IMG/VR virus record: IMGVR_UViG_3300032223_001928
Coordinates: 1 to 48,451 of that record
From: a virus
Strand: one strand, 5' to 3'
DNA length: 48,451 nt
In this document: positions 1-39,558 of the stretch, piece by piece
How the letters are laid out: every line of letters begins with the position of its first letter
How positions within the stretch are numbered: position 1 is the first letter of the stretch
Made by a program: the position numbers and the translations under genes
Notes under the pieces: model-generated
Database searches by the model: none
What the model saw: only the letters and a program-made list of their open reading frames with translations
Told to the model about the DNA's origin: nothing

Positions 1-260
1 GCCGGGAGATTTTCTTACCACTATAGCTTTCGCTACCATCTTTTGATGTTTGTGGTCTGGACTATGCCTTAACCTTTTAATCTTTCGATCAGTCAGGTTG
101 GTGCCGTCTAGTCTCTACACCTTCAAAAATATTTCTATTCTTGCTTGGCTCGGCGTTGCCAGTTAAGGGTTCACCGAATTTGACACCATTCAGATAGAGG
201 ATTTCGCCTCTACTGCTCAATTAAATAAGTCTCCTGTGTTTACCATTTCACCACATCCCC
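1..260 (-). tRNA. tRNA-Leu(UAA), split by a group I intron, 3' end beyond window
   Basis: The 5' exon (260 down to 227) reads as a tRNA 5' half: acceptor strand GGGGATG, D-arm GTG/CAC, then anticodon stem GGAGA and CTT. The 3' exon (13 down to 1) begins AAAATCTCC. Joined, the exons give stem GGAGA/TCTCC and loop CTTAAAA, so anticodon UAA. The interruption lies between U34 and A35. The variable arm, T-arm and 3' acceptor strand lie past the left edge. A leucine tRNA for UUA codons suits an AT-rich phage. The gene is probably co-transcribed with the second tRNA (334-424) from the promoter at 439-467. Confidence 0.9.
14..226 (-). ncRNA. group I self-splicing intron in the tRNA-Leu(UAA) anticodon loop
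   Basis: The 213-nt intron starts after exon U (position 227) and ends with G at position 14, as group I introns require. It shows the conserved core: an R-like segment AGAGACTAGACGG (116 down to 104) and an S-like segment GGCATAGTCC (68 down to 59), plus a terminal hairpin around GTAGCGAAAGCTA. Sequence, insertion site (U34/A35) and size match the cyanobacterial/plastid tRNA-Leu(UAA) intron family (IC3-like) as I remember it. There is no ORF inside, so it is a compact ribozyme. Homing, if any, would need an endonuclease supplied in trans. Confidence 0.9.
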
Positions 261-4283: not shown

Positions 4284-5168
4284 TTATTTTTTTGCAACCT
4301 TATCGGCCAAGTATCGTTTAAAGAGCATAGCAGTCTTGCTGCCAATAGCTCTTTCAGCATCTTTCGAACGAACAATCTCGCCCTTAGATTCAGCAAAGAT
4401 ATCATCAGTCATCGCGACGATAACATCTTTTGTCTTTTCAATTCCTGGATCTTCCCCATTTACTTTCATCTTATCTAGAACATGGGCAAGACGCATTGGA
4501 ACACACCACTCATCAGCAATAGCTTCTGCTTGCTTTAGAACGGCAAGTTTCTCTGGTGGAATGTTTGCATCTCTTGGGCTTTTAGTTTCACGGAATTCGG
4601 CTCGTTTATGCTTACTAATCATCCGCGAACCGTTATTCATTTTTACTTCAGCGGTTGGACGAAGTACAACACCTTCTCGTATGTGTCCTTCTCCCATTCC
4701 ACGACGGATAGCCACAATGCTATCAAGATCCCTTTGAACATTCATAGCCTCGATTGTTGCTGGAATCTTCTCATAAGGTATGAATTCAATTCCAAATTTA
4801 GTACAGAAATCTTCTGCTTTTGGCACATCTAGCCAGTTATCGCCAATACGAACATCAAAAGCGATAAAGTGTAGCTTTGGTCCATAGCTCTTGCTCATGC
4901 CTTGCTGCTTTCCACCGTATGCTTCACCGTGGATACGAACAACTAGATCTTCTGGATATTCCAGACTTTTGAATTGTTCAGTCAGTTTAACTTCATCGAA
5001 CAACGATACAAAGTTTTCATGCTTTTCTCCACCAGAGAAGAAAGAAACATGACCCTTTGACCATTGAATATGTGCGGAAGTACCATGAACTTTCTCAAGA
5101 GCATAACATTCCTTCCATTGTAGAATGTCATTATCTTGATACAAATTAGGTATTTTTATATACCCCAT
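4284..5168 (-). CDS. RNA ligase, Rnl2 family
   Basis: 294 aa. ATP-dependent ligases join RNA ends through a covalent lysyl-AMP intermediate. The motif I lysine is K26 in EKVHGTS (KxHG form typical of RNA ligases). Motif III is seen as HGEAYGG, motif IV as REGVVLRP, and a motif V-like ISKHKRAEF follows. The C-terminal ~100 residues are helical and lysine-rich, like the Rnl2 C-terminal domain. T4-type phages use such ligases with a kinase/phosphatase to mend host-nicked tRNAs; a HAD phosphatase (11953-12660) and phage tRNAs are in this window. The exact RNA substrate cannot be told. Confidence 0.88.
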   Translation of the reverse strand: MGYIKIPNLYQDNDILQWKECYALEKVHGTSAHIQWSKGHVSFFSGGEKHENFVSLFDEVKLTEQFKSLEYPEDLVVRIHGEAYGGKQQGMSKSYGPKLHFIAFDVRIGDNWLDVPKAEDFCTKFGIEFIPYEKIPATIEAMNVQRDLDSIVAIRRGMGEGHIREGVVLRPTAEVKMNNGSRMISKHKRAEFRETKSPRDANIPPEKLAVLKQAEAIADEWCVPMRLAHVLDKMKVNGEDPGIEKTKDVIVAMTDDIFAESKGEIVRSKDAERAIGSKTAMLFKRYLADKVAKK

Positions 5169-18983: not shown

Positions 18984-20558
18984 CTAAACTTCTATAATAG
19001 CATGAGAGGTTGTTAATAAAGTAGACGCAGCAGATGCTGCATTTTGTAAGGCGCAACGAGTTACTTTTGCTGGATCTAAGATCCCTGCCTCATACATATT
19101 TACGTATTTACCGATTGCAAAGTTGTATCCCACTTTAGGATCATTTGCTAATTGAACTGTTAATTCATTGATAATAATATCGGCGCTATCACCGCAATTC
19201 TCTGCAAGCTTACGTATTGGCTCTACACATGCTCGCCTTATAATTTCAACGCCAAATTGTTGATCTTCGTTGTCGGTTTCAACTTCTAGATCTTCGACAC
19301 ATCTGAGTAAACCAACGCCACCGCCTGGTAAAATACCTTCTTGTTGCGCGCTCTTAACTGCTTCTAGAGCGTCTTCAATCCTGTGTTTACGCTCTAACAT
19401 ATCTACTTCTGTTAGACCACCAACGCGAATGATAGCAATACCAGAAGCTAGTCTTGTGATTCTGTCTTGGATAATTTCACAATCTCTAATATCTTCTGTT
19501 TGCTGGATTTCTGCTTTTAGAGCCTCAATTCTATCTTCGACCTCTTTATAATTTCCACCACCGCCAACAACAGTAGTCCAGTTTTTAAGAGCTTCAATTG
19601 TTTTACATGAACCTAGATTGCTTCTCTTTACTTCTTTTAGTTTCATCCCGCCTTCACGGGTAATGAATGTAGCTCCTGTTGCAAGTGCTAAATCTTTTAG
19701 GATATTTCTACGCTCTTCGCCATATTTAGGAGCCTTAATTGCAGCTACCTTCATACTACCACGTTTTAGATTTAGAATCATGGCAGCAAGTGATTGACCT
19801 TCTACATTTTCTGCAAAGATAATAAAAGGCTTATTCTCTCTTGCTGCAATTTCAAGAGCTGGCATAATTTCATCTAGGCTGTCGATATTGTAATCAGTGA
19901 CAAGGATGATTGCATTTTCGTATTTTAGAGCACCACGCCGTTCATCTGTAATAAACTGCGGAGAAACATAGCCAGCAGGAATCTGGAAGCCTTCTACGAT
20001 ATCTAGGCTTGTATCTACTGATTTAGCTTCTTCGATTGAAACTGCTCCATCTTTACCTACTTTATCTACAGCAAGTGCAATAAGCTTACCTATCTGCTTA
20101 TCTCCGTTTGCACTAACCGTCGCTACGTGTTCAACATCTTCAATACTCGTAACTGGCTTAGATAGCTCGGATATGCTTTGAGTGATCTTCGCTACAGCTT
20201 TATCCATGCCGCGCTTAAGTTCGACAGGGCTTGCTCCTGCCGTAATATACTTTTGAGCGCCTGATACGATTGCCCTAGCAAGAACCGTAGCTGTAGTAGT
20301 TCCATCTCCTGCTTCTGTTGCAGTAACCTCAGAAGCCTGCTTAACAATTTGCGCTCCTACGTTCTCGAATGGATCTTCGTAAGTAATAGCTTTTGCTACT
20401 GTTACGCCATCTTTGCTTATTATAGGATTTTTGCCTTTAGGATGAATAACAACATTCCTACCTTTTGGGCCTAACGTACAACTTACAGCATCAGCTAACT
20501 TATTTACACCTGTCAAAATTTTAGAATTTAAAGAACTTCCATTCTCATAAACAACCAT
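18984..20558 (-). CDS. groEL: GroEL-like chaperonin
   Basis: 524 aa, nearly full length for GroEL (~548). ATP-site residues are present: SKDGVTVAK (D50, like E. coli D52) and AGDGTTTATVLAR (D85, like D87). LKRGMDKAV, the DERRGALKYENA region, the apical domain and a closing LPGGGVGLLR with an intermediate-domain acid are also visible. The C-terminus lacks the Gly-Gly-Met tail. Chaperonins fold proteins in a double-ring cage with GroES; a GroES/gp31-like protein lies 15 kb away (35724-36023). Likely folds phage capsid or other abundant proteins. AAGGTATAT precedes ATG 20558. Confidence 0.95.
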   Translation of the reverse strand: MVVYENGSSLNSKILTGVNKLADAVSCTLGPKGRNVVIHPKGKNPIISKDGVTVAKAITYEDPFENVGAQIVKQASEVTATEAGDGTTTATVLARAIVSGAQKYITAGASPVELKRGMDKAVAKITQSISELSKPVTSIEDVEHVATVSANGDKQIGKLIALAVDKVGKDGAVSIEEAKSVDTSLDIVEGFQIPAGYVSPQFITDERRGALKYENAIILVTDYNIDSLDEIMPALEIAARENKPFIIFAENVEGQSLAAMILNLKRGSMKVAAIKAPKYGEERRNILKDLALATGATFITREGGMKLKEVKRSNLGSCKTIEALKNWTTVVGGGGNYKEVEDRIEALKAEIQQTEDIRDCEIIQDRITRLASGIAIIRVGGLTEVDMLERKHRIEDALEAVKSAQQEGILPGGGVGLLRCVEDLEVETDNEDQQFGVEIIRRACVEPIRKLAENCGDSADIIINELTVQLANDPKVGYNFAIGKYVNMYEAGILDPAKVTRCALQNAASAASTLLTTSHAIIEV

Positions 20559-24919: not shown

Positions 24920-25192
24920 CTAATCTTCTAGCACGTCCTTTAGTACATTTGTTACTAAATCTTCTGGCATGTTCTGCATGAAGGCTTCTAATGCTTGTCT
25001 TGGAATTTGATTTTCCTCAATGACCTCTAGAAAGTCAACTAGAGCATCTTTTGAAACAAATTCTCCATCGGCATCTTCAGCGTATCCATGAACATAGCCT
25101 TCGACCAAAGTTTCAACTTCATCTTTCTCTTCAGCTACGCGCTGTACTTCTTCAGCTATAATTTTTTTTAGCTCGCCTCTGGTAATTTGCAT
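24920..25192 (-). CDS. leader-bearing small protein (90 aa), probable virion-associated
   Basis: Begins MQITRGELKKIIAEEVQR, the clearest match to the shared leader, with IAE as a possible processing site. The remainder is an acidic helical domain (FVSKDALVDFLEVIEENQIP, ALEAFMQNMP). Located just downstream of the Glu-rich protein gene. Confidence 0.75.
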   Translation of the reverse strand: MQITRGELKKIIAEEVQRVAEEKDEVETLVEGYVHGYAEDADGEFVSKDALVDFLEVIEENQIPRQALEAFMQNMPEDLVTNVLKDVLED

Positions 25193-25209
25193 TTTGATTT
25201 CCTTCAGTA

Positions 25210-26271
25210 TTAGCCAGTCTTTTTCTTGTTTTTACCTTTGTTGGTAACGCTGCTTTTCTTGCCGTGAGTTACAACATGGTCTCCATTTGGAGCTAGTTCA
25301 GATGTTTTGTGTCCACCTGGGGCTTTTGTCTTTGGACCCTTTGAATCTACCCACTTCATATCTTTGTGACCAGACCAAACATCCTTTACACTACCTTTTT
25401 TTTTATGTAGTACTGGATTTTCGCCTTTTTTATGGGTTACTTTGTGGCCTTTTCCGTGATGGCTTTTTTTCTCTTCTAGCTTTTTCTTTTTTTCTTGCAT
25501 TTTTTTCTTAACGGAAGCTTTCTTGCTTTCTTTCTTTACAGGAGCTTTTTTGCCAGCTTTCTTGCTTCTGGCTTCTGATATAAGACGAGCAGTTACTCTT
25601 CTTAGAACGTTTTCAACTAGTTCATCTTCAGATAAGGCTGATTCATCGAGTTCTTCTTCCTCTTCTTCTTCCTCTTCTTCTTCCTCTTCTTCATCGTGCA
25701 TTGATTCGTCTAGTTCTTCCTCTTCTTCTTCCTCTTCCTCGTGATAACTCTCGTCTAGCTCCTCTTCTTCTTCCTCTTCTTCCTCTTCTTCCTCTTCTTC
25801 TTCGTGATAACGTTCGTCTAGTTCTTCTTCTTCCTCTTCTTCGTCTTCTTCGTCTTCTTCGTCGTCCATCTCTAGATCGTCGTCATCCATGTCCATTTCT
25901 GGCTCTTCATCACTATCGACATCCATATCACCTCCTTCGCTGTCGTCTGTGACGGTGCCTTTTAGACCGAATACATTTAATAGGGCTTCAATGGCTTCTT
26001 TAGCTAGGGCTGGGTCAATTTTTCCTTCGCCTTCACCTTCATCGTCCATACCTACATCAAGAGCTTCATCCTCTTCATGTGCGCCTAATTTCATACCACC
26101 ACCATGTACGGCTGAACCGCCCATAGCAGATCCGGTTTCATCAAGCTCTTCCTCTTCTTCGGCATAACCTGGTGCGCTTTCATTGATAAAGCGATCAGTT
26201 AATGGCTCTAAGTTAGCAAGTTTCATAAACTTGCGTACTGTTGATTCTTCTAACAATTGTTTTTTGCTCAT
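25210..26271 (-). CDS. Glu-rich repeat protein, possible scaffold/prohead core component
   Basis: 353 aa. The N-terminus (MSKKQLLEESTVRKFMKLAN) resembles a segment I recall from marine phage proteins. Residues ~130-212 are poly-acidic with a unit EELDE-[RS]-[YM]-HEEEE repeated several times. A helix DELVENVLRRVTARLISEAR follows, then a Lys-rich basic tail of ~110 residues. Acidic/helical/basic composition is typical of phage scaffold or internal head proteins, but no homology can be claimed. Preceded by an ACTATTTA element. Confidence 0.75.
   Translation of the reverse strand: MSKKQLLEESTVRKFMKLANLEPLTDRFINESAPGYAEEEEELDETGSAMGGSAVHGGGMKLGAHEEDEALDVGMDDEGEGEGKIDPALAKEAIEALLNVFGLKGTVTDDSEGGDMDVDSDEEPEMDMDDDDLEMDDEEDEEDEEEEEEELDERYHEEEEEEEEEEEEEEELDESYHEEEEEEEEELDESMHDEEEEEEEEEEEEEELDESALSEDELVENVLRRVTARLISEARSKKAGKKAPVKKESKKASVKKKMQEKKKKLEEKKSHHGKGHKVTHKKGENPVLHKKKGSVKDVWSGHKDMKWVDSKGPKTKAPGGHKTSELAPNGDHVVTHGKKSSVTNKGKNKKKTG
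25648..25862. repeat. GAA/GAG-rich low-complexity coding repeats
   Basis: Tandem GAA/GAG codons encoding the poly-Glu blocks of the protein above, with an imperfect longer unit containing GAACTAGACGAA-type sequence (ELDE). Such arrays change length easily by slippage, so strain variation is expected here. Confidence 0.85.
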
Positions 26272-26308
26272 ATATCATATCTCCTAATATAATAAGGTTC
26301 TTAACATT

Positions 26309-26316
26309 TAAATAGT
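26309..26316 (-). promoter_or_regulatory. ACTATTTA element (candidate late promoter)
   Basis: GTACTATTTAAATG, 38 bp before the Glu-rich protein gene. Just upstream is a small AT-rich hairpin (AATCC/GGATT). No -35 box. Confidence 0.4.
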
Positions 26317-26351
26317 ACAATAAATCCTAAAAAGGATTATTTTTAATATAA

Positions 26352-26603
26352 TTAGTACGTATTCTGCAAATACGCTTTAATTTTTTCTCTAGCCGAATCT
26401 TCTAATTGCTTTACTCTAACAAAAGATAAGCCTATTCTTTTAGAAACTTCTCTTAAAGTTAATTCTCCGTGCTTATCTGCTGCTAAAACAGCGCAGTTTA
26501 AATCTTCTTCGTAATTCATCCAATTCCTACATTCAGAATTTGGACAAGGTTCCTCTAGTTTTTCACATGCTTCTGTACATGTTTTAAAGTTAAACAGACT
26601 CAT
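26352..26603 (-). CDS. sigma factor region 4-like protein with N-terminal Cys cluster
   Basis: 83 aa. Residues ~45-78 (GELTLREVSKRIGLSFVRVK, then QLEDSAREKIK) match the sigma-70 region 4 helix-turn-helix that reads -35 elements. The N-terminal half has CTEACEKLEEPCPNSEC and a later Cys, a likely zinc site. No region 2 is present, so it may act with host sigma or as an anti-sigma/late-transcription adaptor. Overlaps the upstream gene by four bases, so both are probably made together. Confidence 0.75.
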   Translation of the reverse strand: MSLFNFKTCTEACEKLEEPCPNSECRNWMNYEEDLNCAVLAADKHGELTLREVSKRIGLSFVRVKQLEDSAREKIKAYLQNTY

Positions 26604-26920
26604 AGATCTGGGTTCTCCGTTTCGATTATTGAAAATATATTCTCAATTTCTTCTTGATTTAAAGCAAAATCATTTTGACATGCTGCGCTTTCTTTCTCGT
26701 CTTTCTTGGTCATTTTTTTTCTTCTGTGTGATCTCTTACTTTCTAAGGCTTTATTTACATATGCTACAAGCGTAGGATCACGATCTACATAAGATTCTAT
26801 AACCATACGAAGAAAATCCCAAAACTTTAGACTATCATACTTTAATTGTAGATAGAAGCGCATCTGCATCATTTCATCTATATAAAATGTTAGATTTCTC
26901 CTATCAGTTCTTTTTTCCAT
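26600..26920 (-). CDS. hypothetical protein (106 aa), ribbon-helix-helix-like start
   Basis: Begins MEKRTDRRNLTFYIDEMMQM: a beta strand then helices, as in small RHH-type regulators, followed by a basic patch (RSHRRKKMTKK) and an acidic tail. Coupled to the sigma-like gene, so perhaps a transcription cofactor. Low certainty. Confidence 0.65.
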   Translation of the reverse strand: MEKRTDRRNLTFYIDEMMQMRFYLQLKYDSLKFWDFLRMVIESYVDRDPTLVAYVNKALESKRSHRRKKMTKKDEKESAACQNDFALNQEEIENIFSIIETENPDL

Positions 26921-36435: not shown

Positions 36436-37449
36436 CTAGCGCACCGGACAGCTTCCGCCTTCACATTCCATCGAATCAGCTAAATTGCCTTCACCAACAT
36501 CTTCTTCACGAATTGGCTTAATCTTAGCTGATAGCTTCTCGTATTGCTCCTTGGTGATTGTTTCCTTTGGAGCTTGCTTAAAGCCGTGTTCGCTGTGACA
36601 CAGGAATGAAATCGTTTTTAGATATTTAAGATTTTGTCCTAGCCAAGCTTTTAGACCTTCTAGATCCTCTCGCTTGTAATAAACAGTGACGCTAACTGAC
36701 TGATCTGCCCAGTGCTTTTGGGCCATTTTAACAACATCTAATTGTTTCCAAGTAGTCCAATCTTCATCTGCGACTGGAGCATCTTCTGGCGCAGCAACAT
36801 AAAAATCTACAACAAGCGTGTTGTGATCTAAGCTACCGTCAAATCTTACTACAGGCTCCATATAATGTCCAGCTTCTTTTAGAAGTGGAATTAGTGCATC
36901 ATTAGCGGAGAAGCGTACACGTTGAATAATATAACGTGAATAGCCTGGATGGACTCCTTCATAACAATCAAATACTTTAGAAATTGTACCTGATGGTTTA
37001 ATTACGGTTGTACGAATACTCTCTGGAATTTTTAGTTCTGCTGAATATTTCTTATTCTCGTCCTGGATTGCAGCATAGGCACGATCAAGAACATCAGGTG
37101 CAAACAGCTGGCTTTGAAGACATCCCGTAATACCAGTTCCAATGCGACGATTACGCTTAACAACAGCATCACATTTTGGTTGATGATACTTTTCCATTGT
37201 TACACGCTTACCCCAGCGATGCATTAGACGTGAAGCTTCAATGAATTCTTCTTCATTATTAAGGTTTGGTAGTGCAATTTCTTGAAGGTTGCATGGCTCA
37301 CCATCTTCAAGTGTTGCTTCTGCACAGTTATGTACGCAAATTCCATTAGCAAAAAAATTATGTGTATCATCTACTGTTAAATCATATACGTCTGCTGTTT
37401 CTGTTAAAAATTCAATACTATCTATTTCTTCAAATTCTACTGTGTGCAT
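36436..37449 (-). CDS. ribonucleotide reductase C-terminal half with C-terminal split intein (IntC)
   Basis: 337 aa; ATG 37449 follows AGGAGATATGAG. Residues 1-41 are an intein C-part: VYDLTVDDTHNFFANGI, then CVHN. Splicing then joins at Cys42. The extein (296 aa) begins CAEATLEDGEPCNLQEI and ends CEGGSCPVR, as in adenosylcobalamin-dependent (class II, RTPR-type) reductases. KPSGTISKVF is also conserved. The first extein Cys aligns with the active-site thiyl-radical Cys of the NPCGE motif. The N-half is at 38299-39558. A terminator follows. Confidence 0.93.
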   Translation of the reverse strand: MHTVEFEEIDSIEFLTETADVYDLTVDDTHNFFANGICVHNCAEATLEDGEPCNLQEIALPNLNNEEEFIEASRLMHRWGKRVTMEKYHQPKCDAVVKRNRRIGTGITGCLQSQLFAPDVLDRAYAAIQDENKKYSAELKIPESIRTTVIKPSGTISKVFDCYEGVHPGYSRYIIQRVRFSANDALIPLLKEAGHYMEPVVRFDGSLDHNTLVVDFYVAAPEDAPVADEDWTTWKQLDVVKMAQKHWADQSVSVTVYYKREDLEGLKAWLGQNLKYLKTISFLCHSEHGFKQAPKETITKEQYEKLSAKIKPIREEDVGEGNLADSMECEGGSCPVR

Positions 37450-37450
37450 C

Positions 37451-38248
37451 TCATATCTCCTGATAATTTTTTCTAGTTTTTTTCCACTTCTTGGCAATTG
37501 CTGATTTTGTTTTCAGTTCTGTAAATTTAAGAATCTTTTGAAGATCACAAATTAATTCTATCTCAAGATCTTTTTCATAAATTTCCTTGAATGCATAATA
37601 TTTCTTCATGCGATCCTTGGAAGTATAGTAGAAACTTGATTTTATTTCAACTATCTTCTTTAGAATTCCTTTCTCGTAAATAAAGAAATCTGGAAGATAT
37701 TTTAGACCGTCGAGAACTTCATACTGTCTTACTTCTACGTCCCATTCAAAATTATTATTATCTAGCCATTCAGCGTAAACATACTCCCAAGAACTTCTAA
37801 GAAAGACATATTTCTGTTTTGATCTATTAAAATAATATCCGCCAATGAATCTTTTATTATTTTTTAATAGTTCTGGTCTTTTTATCGGCCAATCAGTAAA
37901 ATTGTTGTCTATCTTAGCATTTTCACTTCTTACTTTTTTTAGATGATCTGTTATTACGTGCGTTCCAACTCTTAGTTGAATGTCTAGATCTTTTAAAACC
38001 TTCCTACAGACGGTATATGTAAAATTTGGAAGGTTAATTTTCTTAACGATTAACTTAAATCCAATTCCATCCACATACATTTTTTCTAAAATAGATTTTA
38101 ATGCTTGTTTGGCTTCTGTATCATTAACCTTTTTATACAGTTTTTGTATAGATCCGTTTTTATTTTTTCTTTCTGCAAGAATTTCCGAAAAGTATATTTT
38201 GTTTATTAACTCTTTTGCTGTATCTAAATCATATGAATCCGTGTCCAT
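37451..38248 (-). CDS. free-standing homing endonuclease (Vsr/PD-(D/E)xK-like) in the split-intein gap
   Basis: 265 aa, one base from the IntC gene. Residues ~145-215 show a restriction-endonuclease fold: SSWEYVYAEWLDNNNFEW, then KYLPDFFIYEKG, then IVEIKSSF (E, PD, ExK). The N-terminal half is a helical, Lys-rich probable DNA-binding region. Endonucleases of this type between intein halves have been described for fractured phage genes. It is AT-rich with many Lys/Asn. Its ATG lies within a 19-bp inverted repeat, and AGGAG in the loop. Confidence 0.85.
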   Translation of the reverse strand: MDTDSYDLDTAKELINKIYFSEILAERKNKNGSIQKLYKKVNDTEAKQALKSILEKMYVDGIGFKLIVKKINLPNFTYTVCRKVLKDLDIQLRVGTHVITDHLKKVRSENAKIDNNFTDWPIKRPELLKNNKRFIGGYYFNRSKQKYVFLRSSWEYVYAEWLDNNNFEWDVEVRQYEVLDGLKYLPDFFIYEKGILKKIVEIKSSFYYTSKDRMKKYYAFKEIYEKDLEIELICDLQKILKFTELKTKSAIAKKWKKTRKNYQEI

Positions 38249-38290
38249 TAGGTTCTCCTAATATAAGTAGTCTAATGGACACGGATTCAT
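38233..38290 (-). promoter_or_regulatory. 19-bp perfect inverted repeat covering the endonuclease start codon
   Basis: Arms 38233-38251 and 38272-38290 are exact reverse complements, with a 20-nt loop. On the mRNA the endonuclease ATG (38248-38246) is inside the 3' arm and AGGAG is in the loop. Readthrough mRNA from the IntN gene would hide the start codon. A transcript starting inside the loop or 5' arm would not. Inferred role: keep the endonuclease low or timed, as hairpins do for some T4 intron endonucleases. Confidence 0.85.
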
Positions 38291-38298
38291 CATTTTAT

Positions 38299-39558
38299 TT
38301 ATGAAATTTTATATAGCTTATCTTCAAGAGTCAGATTTTGTGCTTCTACCCAGCCTCTTTGAGTTAAGACTCTGTGGTCTGGTGTGAGTTTAATCTCTTT
38401 ACCAGATTTTGTCTTAAGTTTCATAATTTGAGCATCTTCCTTTGTCTTGAACGCAATAGCGTTTTTAATAACTACTTCTTGTTTTTCTTCATCGTAGCTG
38501 TAGACCTCAAAATTAGCATTCATTTCGGCTAATTCTTGAATTGTTTTTTCACCTACTGTGGTCATAACAAGAGAATCGCCTGTTAAGCATGGATTTACGC
38601 CAATTGCTGGGTCATATTTCTCTTCACCCATACGACCATATTTTTGCATATTGGTTCGATTTACGATACCAAATGGTTCACCTTCTTCGTATGTTTTCCA
38701 GAATAATGGATGTAGATCGTCAACATCATCTACAACAACTGAGAAGTTCGCCATAGCACGTTGAGTTGGAATATTACCAAGATCCCAGCGTTTAGCCTTT
38801 AGGTACTCTTTATCCCAAGGATCGCCAAGAATAATAATAGCTGAACGACGAACATTACCGGCAACAACCATTTCAGCAATTGAACATAGGATATCTGCCG
38901 CGTCAAGAGGCTTAACGTGTTTGCCGCCTCTGGCGTTGAGGATTGTGCATAGCTTTTCGACAAATGCGATAAGAGGTTTTGGACCGCTTGAAGAACCTCC
39001 AAAGCCACTAATAGGCTCGCCAGCAGGACGAATGCATACAGTAGAATAGCTAAAAGATTTACCAGTATCAAAATATGACTCCAAAATACGACGGGTTAGT
39101 TCATTCCATCCTTCACGACTATCTGGGACGATAAAGTCTGCGTCTTTGCTATCACGATTTACAATATGTACATCGCGTTTAACTTTTGGTAGTTTGCTGA
39201 CAAAGCGGTGTTCAACTGACATACCAACACCACCGCCTAACATTAGCAGATCCTGAGCAAGTACGAAATTTGACCAGTCATCACCCGCTGTAAACCAGCA
39301 GTTATTAAGAGCAACACCGCCAAGTTTTTTATGGCTTGGAGCACCTGAATACCACCAACCACGACCAGCAGGACCAGCTTTACGTTCAGTTAGATAATAA
39401 CGTAGGCGCTCAATCTCTTGTGGACTAACTTCATGACCAGTTACGTTACCATAAATAACACGCTCGACTGTATCACTCCAATTCTCTAATGCACCATAAT
39501 CTTTACGGGCATAGGTTCTTTTGTATACAACTTTAGCTAGATTAGACCAATTTGACAT
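38299..39558 (-). CDS. ribonucleotide reductase N-terminal half with N-terminal split intein (IntN)
   Basis: 419 aa. The extein is residues 1-323: VVYKRTYARKDYG, ALNNCWF, GGGVGMSV, GNVRRSA and GIVNRTN are class II (NrdJ/RTPR-type) hallmarks, ending IGVNP. From Cys324 on, 96 residues are an intein N-part: CLTGDSLVMTTVGEKTIQEL (block A) and KLTPDHRVLTQRGWVEA (block B, TxxH), ending at a normal stop. Needs protein trans-splicing with the product of 36436-37449 to make an active ~619-aa reductase of dNTP synthesis. Confidence 0.94.
   Translation of the reverse strand: MSNWSNLAKVVYKRTYARKDYGALENWSDTVERVIYGNVTGHEVSPQEIERLRYYLTERKAGPAGRGWWYSGAPSHKKLGGVALNNCWFTAGDDWSNFVLAQDLLMLGGGVGMSVEHRFVSKLPKVKRDVHIVNRDSKDADFIVPDSREGWNELTRRILESYFDTGKSFSYSTVCIRPAGEPISGFGGSSSGPKPLIAFVEKLCTILNARGGKHVKPLDAADILCSIAEMVVAGNVRRSAIIILGDPWDKEYLKAKRWDLGNIPTQRAMANFSVVVDDVDDLHPLFWKTYEEGEPFGIVNRTNMQKYGRMGEEKYDPAIGVNPCLTGDSLVMTTVGEKTIQELAEMNANFEVYSYDEEKQEVVIKNAIAFKTKEDAQIMKLKTKSGKEIKLTPDHRVLTQRGWVEAQNLTLEDKLYKIS

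Follow-up and report, generated by a model that had tools for sequence, protein, structure and literature searches.

A group I intron in the tRNA-Leu(UAA) gene of a phage tRNA array belongs to a family shared by phages and bacteria

The stretch of DNA analysed here (the window) comprises the whole of an IMG/VR virus record, 48,451 bases long and classed as linear and probably a fragment, and its first 260 positions carry a tRNA-Leu(UAA) gene that is split by a group I intron. We hold with high confidence that the gene is part of the tRNA array of a large tailed phage and that its intron is an ORF-less member of a phage and bacterial family, for which splicing and mobility are predicted from sequence comparison. 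This reading draws on direct observations: the anatomy of the gene, a conserved intron structure, an exact insertion site, intronless relatives and family members that encode HNH endonucleases.

The gene lies on the minus strand, with the 5′ exon at 260-227, the intron at 226-14 and the start of the 3′ exon at 13-1. From 260 to 1 it reads GGGGATG TG GTGAAATGGTAAACAC A GGAGA CTT, then 213 nt, then AAAA TCTCC CGGC. By exon reading, the 5′ exon comprises the acceptor 5′ strand, the D arm and the anticodon arm to U34, ending in GGAGACTT; the 3′ exon, AAAATCTCCCGGC, runs from A35 along the 3′ side of the anticodon stem to the point where the contig stops. Joining the exons without 226-14 yields a perfectly paired anticodon arm, GGAGA-CUUAAAA-UCUCC, whose anticodon is UAA, and the junction of GGAGACUU with AAAAUCUCC places the intron between U34 and A35 of tRNA-Leu(UAA), a gene that homologues show complete. 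The intron is exactly 213 nt long, starts after U, ends in G and has the end hairpin GUAGC-GAAA-GCUAU at 36-23; the coordinates and the 213-nt length given by the first-pass annotation were exact. The window is the whole record and includes only 13 nt of the 3′ exon, so the variable arm, the T arm and the 3′ strand of the acceptor lie outside the view.

The helices expected near both splice sites and in the core can be drawn on the minus strand of the window. P1 (216-229) pairs the exon CUU at 229-227 with an internal guide, GAG at 218-216, placing a U.G pair at the 5′ splice site; P1, including this pair, is invariant in all 22 aligned introns, and its loop in the window intron has only six bases. 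P3 (100-187) joins GGUGUC at 187-182 to GGCACC at 105-100, with compensatory changes at all six pairs and 100% of cells paired. P7 (60-113), the guanosine-binding pseudoknotted helix, joins GACUA at 113-109 to UAGUC at 64-60, with 99.1% of cells paired and two pairs covarying, and 99.2% of cells are paired in P4. A P9.0-like closing helix (56-52 with 21-17; 17-56 overall) encloses P9 at 48-37 and the hairpin at 36-23, and the terminal intron G at position 14 (the omega G, marking the 3′ splice site) is invariant in the alignment. In such a fold of the transcript, the exon end CUU would pair with the guide GAG, a guanosine bound in P7 would attack after U34 and the freed 5′ exon would attack after the terminal G, leaving ligated exons with a normal anticodon arm.

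We then assessed this structure with covariance models, folding and covariation. At its gathering score, the Rfam group I model RF00028 gave no match anywhere in the window; a local search with the same model matched 236-34 over the full model (1-253) at 47.7 bits (gathering score 50, E = 3.8e-11), a score just under the curated cut-off. A family-specific covariance model, R1, for which 19 other tRNA-Leu introns were used and the window was held out, matched 229-14 at 178.4 bits (E = 1e-52); the runner-up in the window scored 8.8 bits. RNA folding gave z = -4.7, with none of 200 shuffles equally stable. We aligned 22 tRNA-Leu introns including that of the window and drew on the window sequence P1, P2, P3, P4, P5, P6, P6a, P7, P8, P9.0, P9, P9.2 and the anticodon stem. 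Pairing held in 93.2% of cells, compared to 31-44% when partners were slid by 1-3 columns; two-sided, compensatory changes occurred at 40 of 65 pairs compared to 26 in shuffles, and the covariation score was 0.427 compared to 0.130 in shuffles. Because the structure was drawn on the sequence of the window itself, these pair counts are biased in its favour; P5, P6a and parts of P8 and P9 are variable or badly aligned. The tail is nearly invariant among phage tRNA-Leu introns, a conservation that is partly by selection because the aligned sequences were gathered by an exact tail motif; that selection leaves P2, P3, P8 and the anticodon stem unaffected. We place the element in group I on the model match over the whole intron, the P3-P9 core with its P7 pseudoknot, the P1 U.G pair and the terminal G, while a putative assignment to subgroup IC3 rests on site, size and similarity. 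The earlier proposal, that a phage carries a group I intron at the textbook position in tRNA-Leu(UAA), is supported.

By DnaE-type DNA polymerase, the closest relatives of the window are G001 (111 kb) and G002 (174 kb), at 73% identity. G002 is collinear with window positions 3143-48198, and its tRNA array (80,251-82,814) lies just beyond the collinear part, at the end matching window position 1, opening with the same unusual tRNA-Ile(UAU) as the window. The window therefore ends inside a tRNA array, of which the split gene is the second visible tRNA. The first, called Ile(UAU) by ARAGORN and found at the same place in G002, is a 91-nt class II tRNA at 334-424 on the minus strand, with a long variable arm, a very short D loop and an extended D stem; its best Rfam resemblance is to tRNA-Sec (24.5 bits, below cut-off). 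AUA reassignment by this odd tRNA was considered and rejected: AUA sites in orthologues carry I, V or L, like AUU and AUC, and because AUA thus behaves as Ile no recoding is apparent. Upstream of both tRNAs, a consensus scan (10 of 12 positions) found a sigma-70-like promoter, TTTACA-17-TATAGT with an extended TG, at 439-467 on the minus strand; the evidence for it is weak because three such sites occur in the region compared to 1.7 expected. Elsewhere in the window, a ribonucleotide reductase at 36436-39558 (minus strand) is split into two ORFs that each bear an intein half matching Pfam Intein_splicing; a 265-aa ORF separates them. The arrangement resembles a split-intein 'fractured gene', and the counterpart in G001 (24955-26811) is uninterrupted. 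A GroEL-like chaperonin at 18984-20558 (minus strand) is kept in five of five relatives examined, at 53-73% identity.

With the contig end falling inside the tRNA and its 3′ part off the contig, the gene could in principle be a non-functional remnant of a tRNA and its intron, decayed or truncated. We consider this very improbable: no invariant base has been lost (the window retains each of the 84 alignment columns that do not vary among the other 21 introns), the anticodon-stem strands pair perfectly, an intact tRNA and a promoter-like site lie upstream, and the G002 array runs on beyond the equivalent place, which points to an assembly break. The gene is predicted to yield a functional tRNA once spliced.

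Related phages also supply natural empty sites. In the more distantly related G010 and G011, tRNA-Leu(UAA) is intronless, and the G010 sequence, ACACAGGAGACTT followed directly by AAAATCTCCCG (ACACAGGAGACTTAAAATCTCCCG), is identical to the joined exons of the window over 24 nt; the window 5′ exon has a 28-nt match of 89% to this intact intronless gene. G002 too has a tRNA-Leu(UAA) with no intron, though the body of this tRNA is short and different. The window intron was found in none of 17 related records by DNA and RF00028 searches. The sole RF00028 match in the relatives, above cut-off (G002 50947-51248, L150), was rejected as a counterpart: it is a group I intron that lies between protein-like sequence, apparently within a coding region for a protein, and not in a tRNA.

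We found the same arrangement in many other phages. Viral contigs scanned for exact copies of the tail plus the tRNA-Leu 3′ exon gave at least 119 stretches, many of them chance matches, and a locus was accepted only if the exons paired and the tRNA was found. With additional scans included, at least 47 viral-contig loci carry an intron-bearing tRNA-Leu(UAA)-type gene, most of them with the whole tRNA. One is in a cultured virus, Agrobacterium phage Atu_ph07 (MF403008, 490 kb), with an intron of 278 nt; others are in a 735-kb phage (LR756501, 205 nt) and a 595-kb phage (LR756511, 700 nt). The Atu_ph07 and LR756501 introns share gene, site and tail with the window intron at about 69-70% identity and differ from it in length, in having the complete tRNA visible and in being unannotated in their records. 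At the Rfam gathering score for group I, the introns of Atu_ph07, LR756501 and LR756511 all go undetected. A Bradyrhizobium conjugative plasmid also carries a tRNA-Leu intron, group I-like introns occur in phage-contig tRNAs for Gln, Thr, Asn and Arg, and a relative lies between capsid ORFs in Pelagibacter phage HTVC120P. The Gln, Thr and Asn tRNA introns measure 218-773 nt (L207, L212, L222, L226, L239, L240, L242, L243, L246 and L250). The window intron is one of a widespread, barely annotated family of phage tRNA introns. Like the introns of phage protein genes (T4 td, Twort nrd and Pf-WMP3 DNA polymerase among them), some of which have HNH endonucleases, it is a phage-borne group I intron, but those lie in mRNA genes and this one in a tRNA.

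Several members of the family encode endonucleases. The exon-pairing search found introns longer than 300 nt at eight loci, of which five (L017, L022, L063, L102 and L117) encode HNH proteins, called by Pfam HNH_3 with some matches below the curated cut-off. The intron of L194, on a 4-kb contig from a Parcubacteria MAG, also encodes HNH, as does that of L181 (LR756511), judged by eye. The introns of L017, L102, L117, L181 and L194 share site and core with the window intron and are larger, at about 590-780 nt. Their HNH ORF sits in one of two places: within the P1 loop in L102, L017, L117 and L194, where exon GACTT precedes it and the guide follows (TTGAG in L102 and L017, CTTGAG in L194, CTTGGG in L117), and on the P6 side in L181. 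Wrongly paired exons, considered for L102, L194, L017 and L117 with their compact full model matches, were rejected, the 5′ half being in place and the ORF in the P1 loop. The 213 nt of the window intron contain no ORF and no homing endonuclease; HNH ORFs occur only in its sister introns. These HNH-bearing phage copies suggest homing, and the window intron is probably an ORF-less form of a homing family.

An alternative is that the intron is kept for a benefit to the phage, for example by delaying tRNA maturation or by shielding the anticodon loop against anticodon nucleases of the host. Its wide distribution in phages and a member of the RNA ligase family nearby (4284-5168) are consistent with such a role, but related phages hold tRNA-Leu(UAA) without the intron, the HNH-bearing forms suggest selfish spread and the spliced, mature tRNA would be exposed again; we regard this explanation as improbable. 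The intron probably came to the gene by homing or by transfer of a whole intron-bearing tRNA gene. Marine T7-like phage contigs and two Pelagibacteraceae contigs carry an intron-bearing tRNA gene that is about 87-96% identical (L191 6913-7190 and L192 4-251 and 454-491, versus L038, L089 and others), and the similarity spans almost exactly the gene, with dissimilar flanks. This pattern strongly hints at exchange between phage and host, either through recombination or through integration into the tRNA. In L192, one end of the tRNA is present a second time, as a 38-nt copy such as integration would leave. The earlier suggestion that phages act as vehicles for the intron therefore gains indirect support from other phages, in which the gene is shared without its flanks and some copies encode HNH. 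It is conceivable, and we offer it tentatively, that large phages are a main reservoir and vector, that HNH forms home into U34/A35 in phages and bacteria alike and leave ORF-less descendants such as the window intron, and that the scattered bacterial introns, perhaps even the 'ancient' cyanobacterial one, were sampled from the phage pool.

The tRNA-Leu(UAA) intron is a classic ancient intron of cyanobacteria that passed to plastids, and U34/A35 is its textbook site. The window intron resembles the cyanobacterial and plastid trnL intron in its tRNA, its insertion point, the CUU/GAG P1 with U.G, the GUAGCGAAAGCU hairpin, small size and lack of an ORF, and is unlike it in being carried by a phage; its closing helix and tail (..AUAGUGGUAAG) also differ from a provisional Anabaena tail. 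The first-pass annotation had suggested a cyanobacterial history, and an intron taken from cyanobacteria through a cyanophage ancestor would account for the shared site. The P5-P6 motif GGCAATCCTGAGCCAA in some phage group I introns, including the tRNA-Leu introns L230 and L017, and a Microcoleus phage with a tRNA-Arg(CCU) intron also favour that origin. However, the window intron is without the GGCAATCCTGAGCCAA motif, and its nearest introns are those of phages (76% identity for the nearest) and the tRNA-Leu introns of Chloroflexota and Acidobacteriota (70-74%), compared to about 63% for a provisional Anabaena intron sequence, the sole cyanobacterial comparison and a lead only. In two trees, built from short sequences and with mixed support, the window intron groups with phage introns L105 and L199 and with Chloroflexota, Acidobacteriota and Treponema tRNA-Leu(UAA) introns, which share its site but are on cellular contigs and mostly larger (211-248 nt), whereas the single provisional Anabaena sequence falls elsewhere, with L059. 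A scan of 84,980 species genomes found the tail motif in 16 contigs, from Chloroflexi, Acidobacteria, Treponema, Bacteroidales, Pelagibacteraceae, Parcubacteria and others; none of the 16 has a cyanobacterial label, and in several the neighbouring genes look chromosomal. Among Chloroflexota, 13 of 201 genomes match the model, most of the resolved ones in a tRNA-Met(CAU) gene. A guessed cyanobacterial-type tail was in no viral contig, and nothing indicating a cyanobacterial host was found within the window. Beyond cyanobacteria, tRNA-Leu(UAA) introns are also reported from the gammaproteobacteria BOGUAY and Thiomargarita (PMC4853749). We therefore judge descent from cyanobacteria unlikely; because the sequences are short, tree support is mixed and the Anabaena sequence is provisional, our claim is limited to a specifically cyanobacterial or plastid origin not being supported.

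A 2014 review describes phage group I introns as tending toward protein genes (PMC3984707), and the word 'intron' is absent from the main text of the huge-phage paper. Our search of open-licence PubMed Central, with its partial coverage, found no description of phage tRNA-Leu introns, which is weak evidence of absence because only open-licence articles are covered. The class of intron and its site are known, and the phage setting is underdescribed. There is also an annotation gap, in which split tRNAs are missed by default ARAGORN and the three phage copies named above by the Rfam gathering score. The same tRNA site is filled in many phages, one of them cultured, and some copies have HNH endonucleases; this phage-wide, partly HNH-bearing family is of more interest than the window feature alone. 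The HNH-bearing phage copies offer a concrete, testable route by which tRNA introns may move between lineages.
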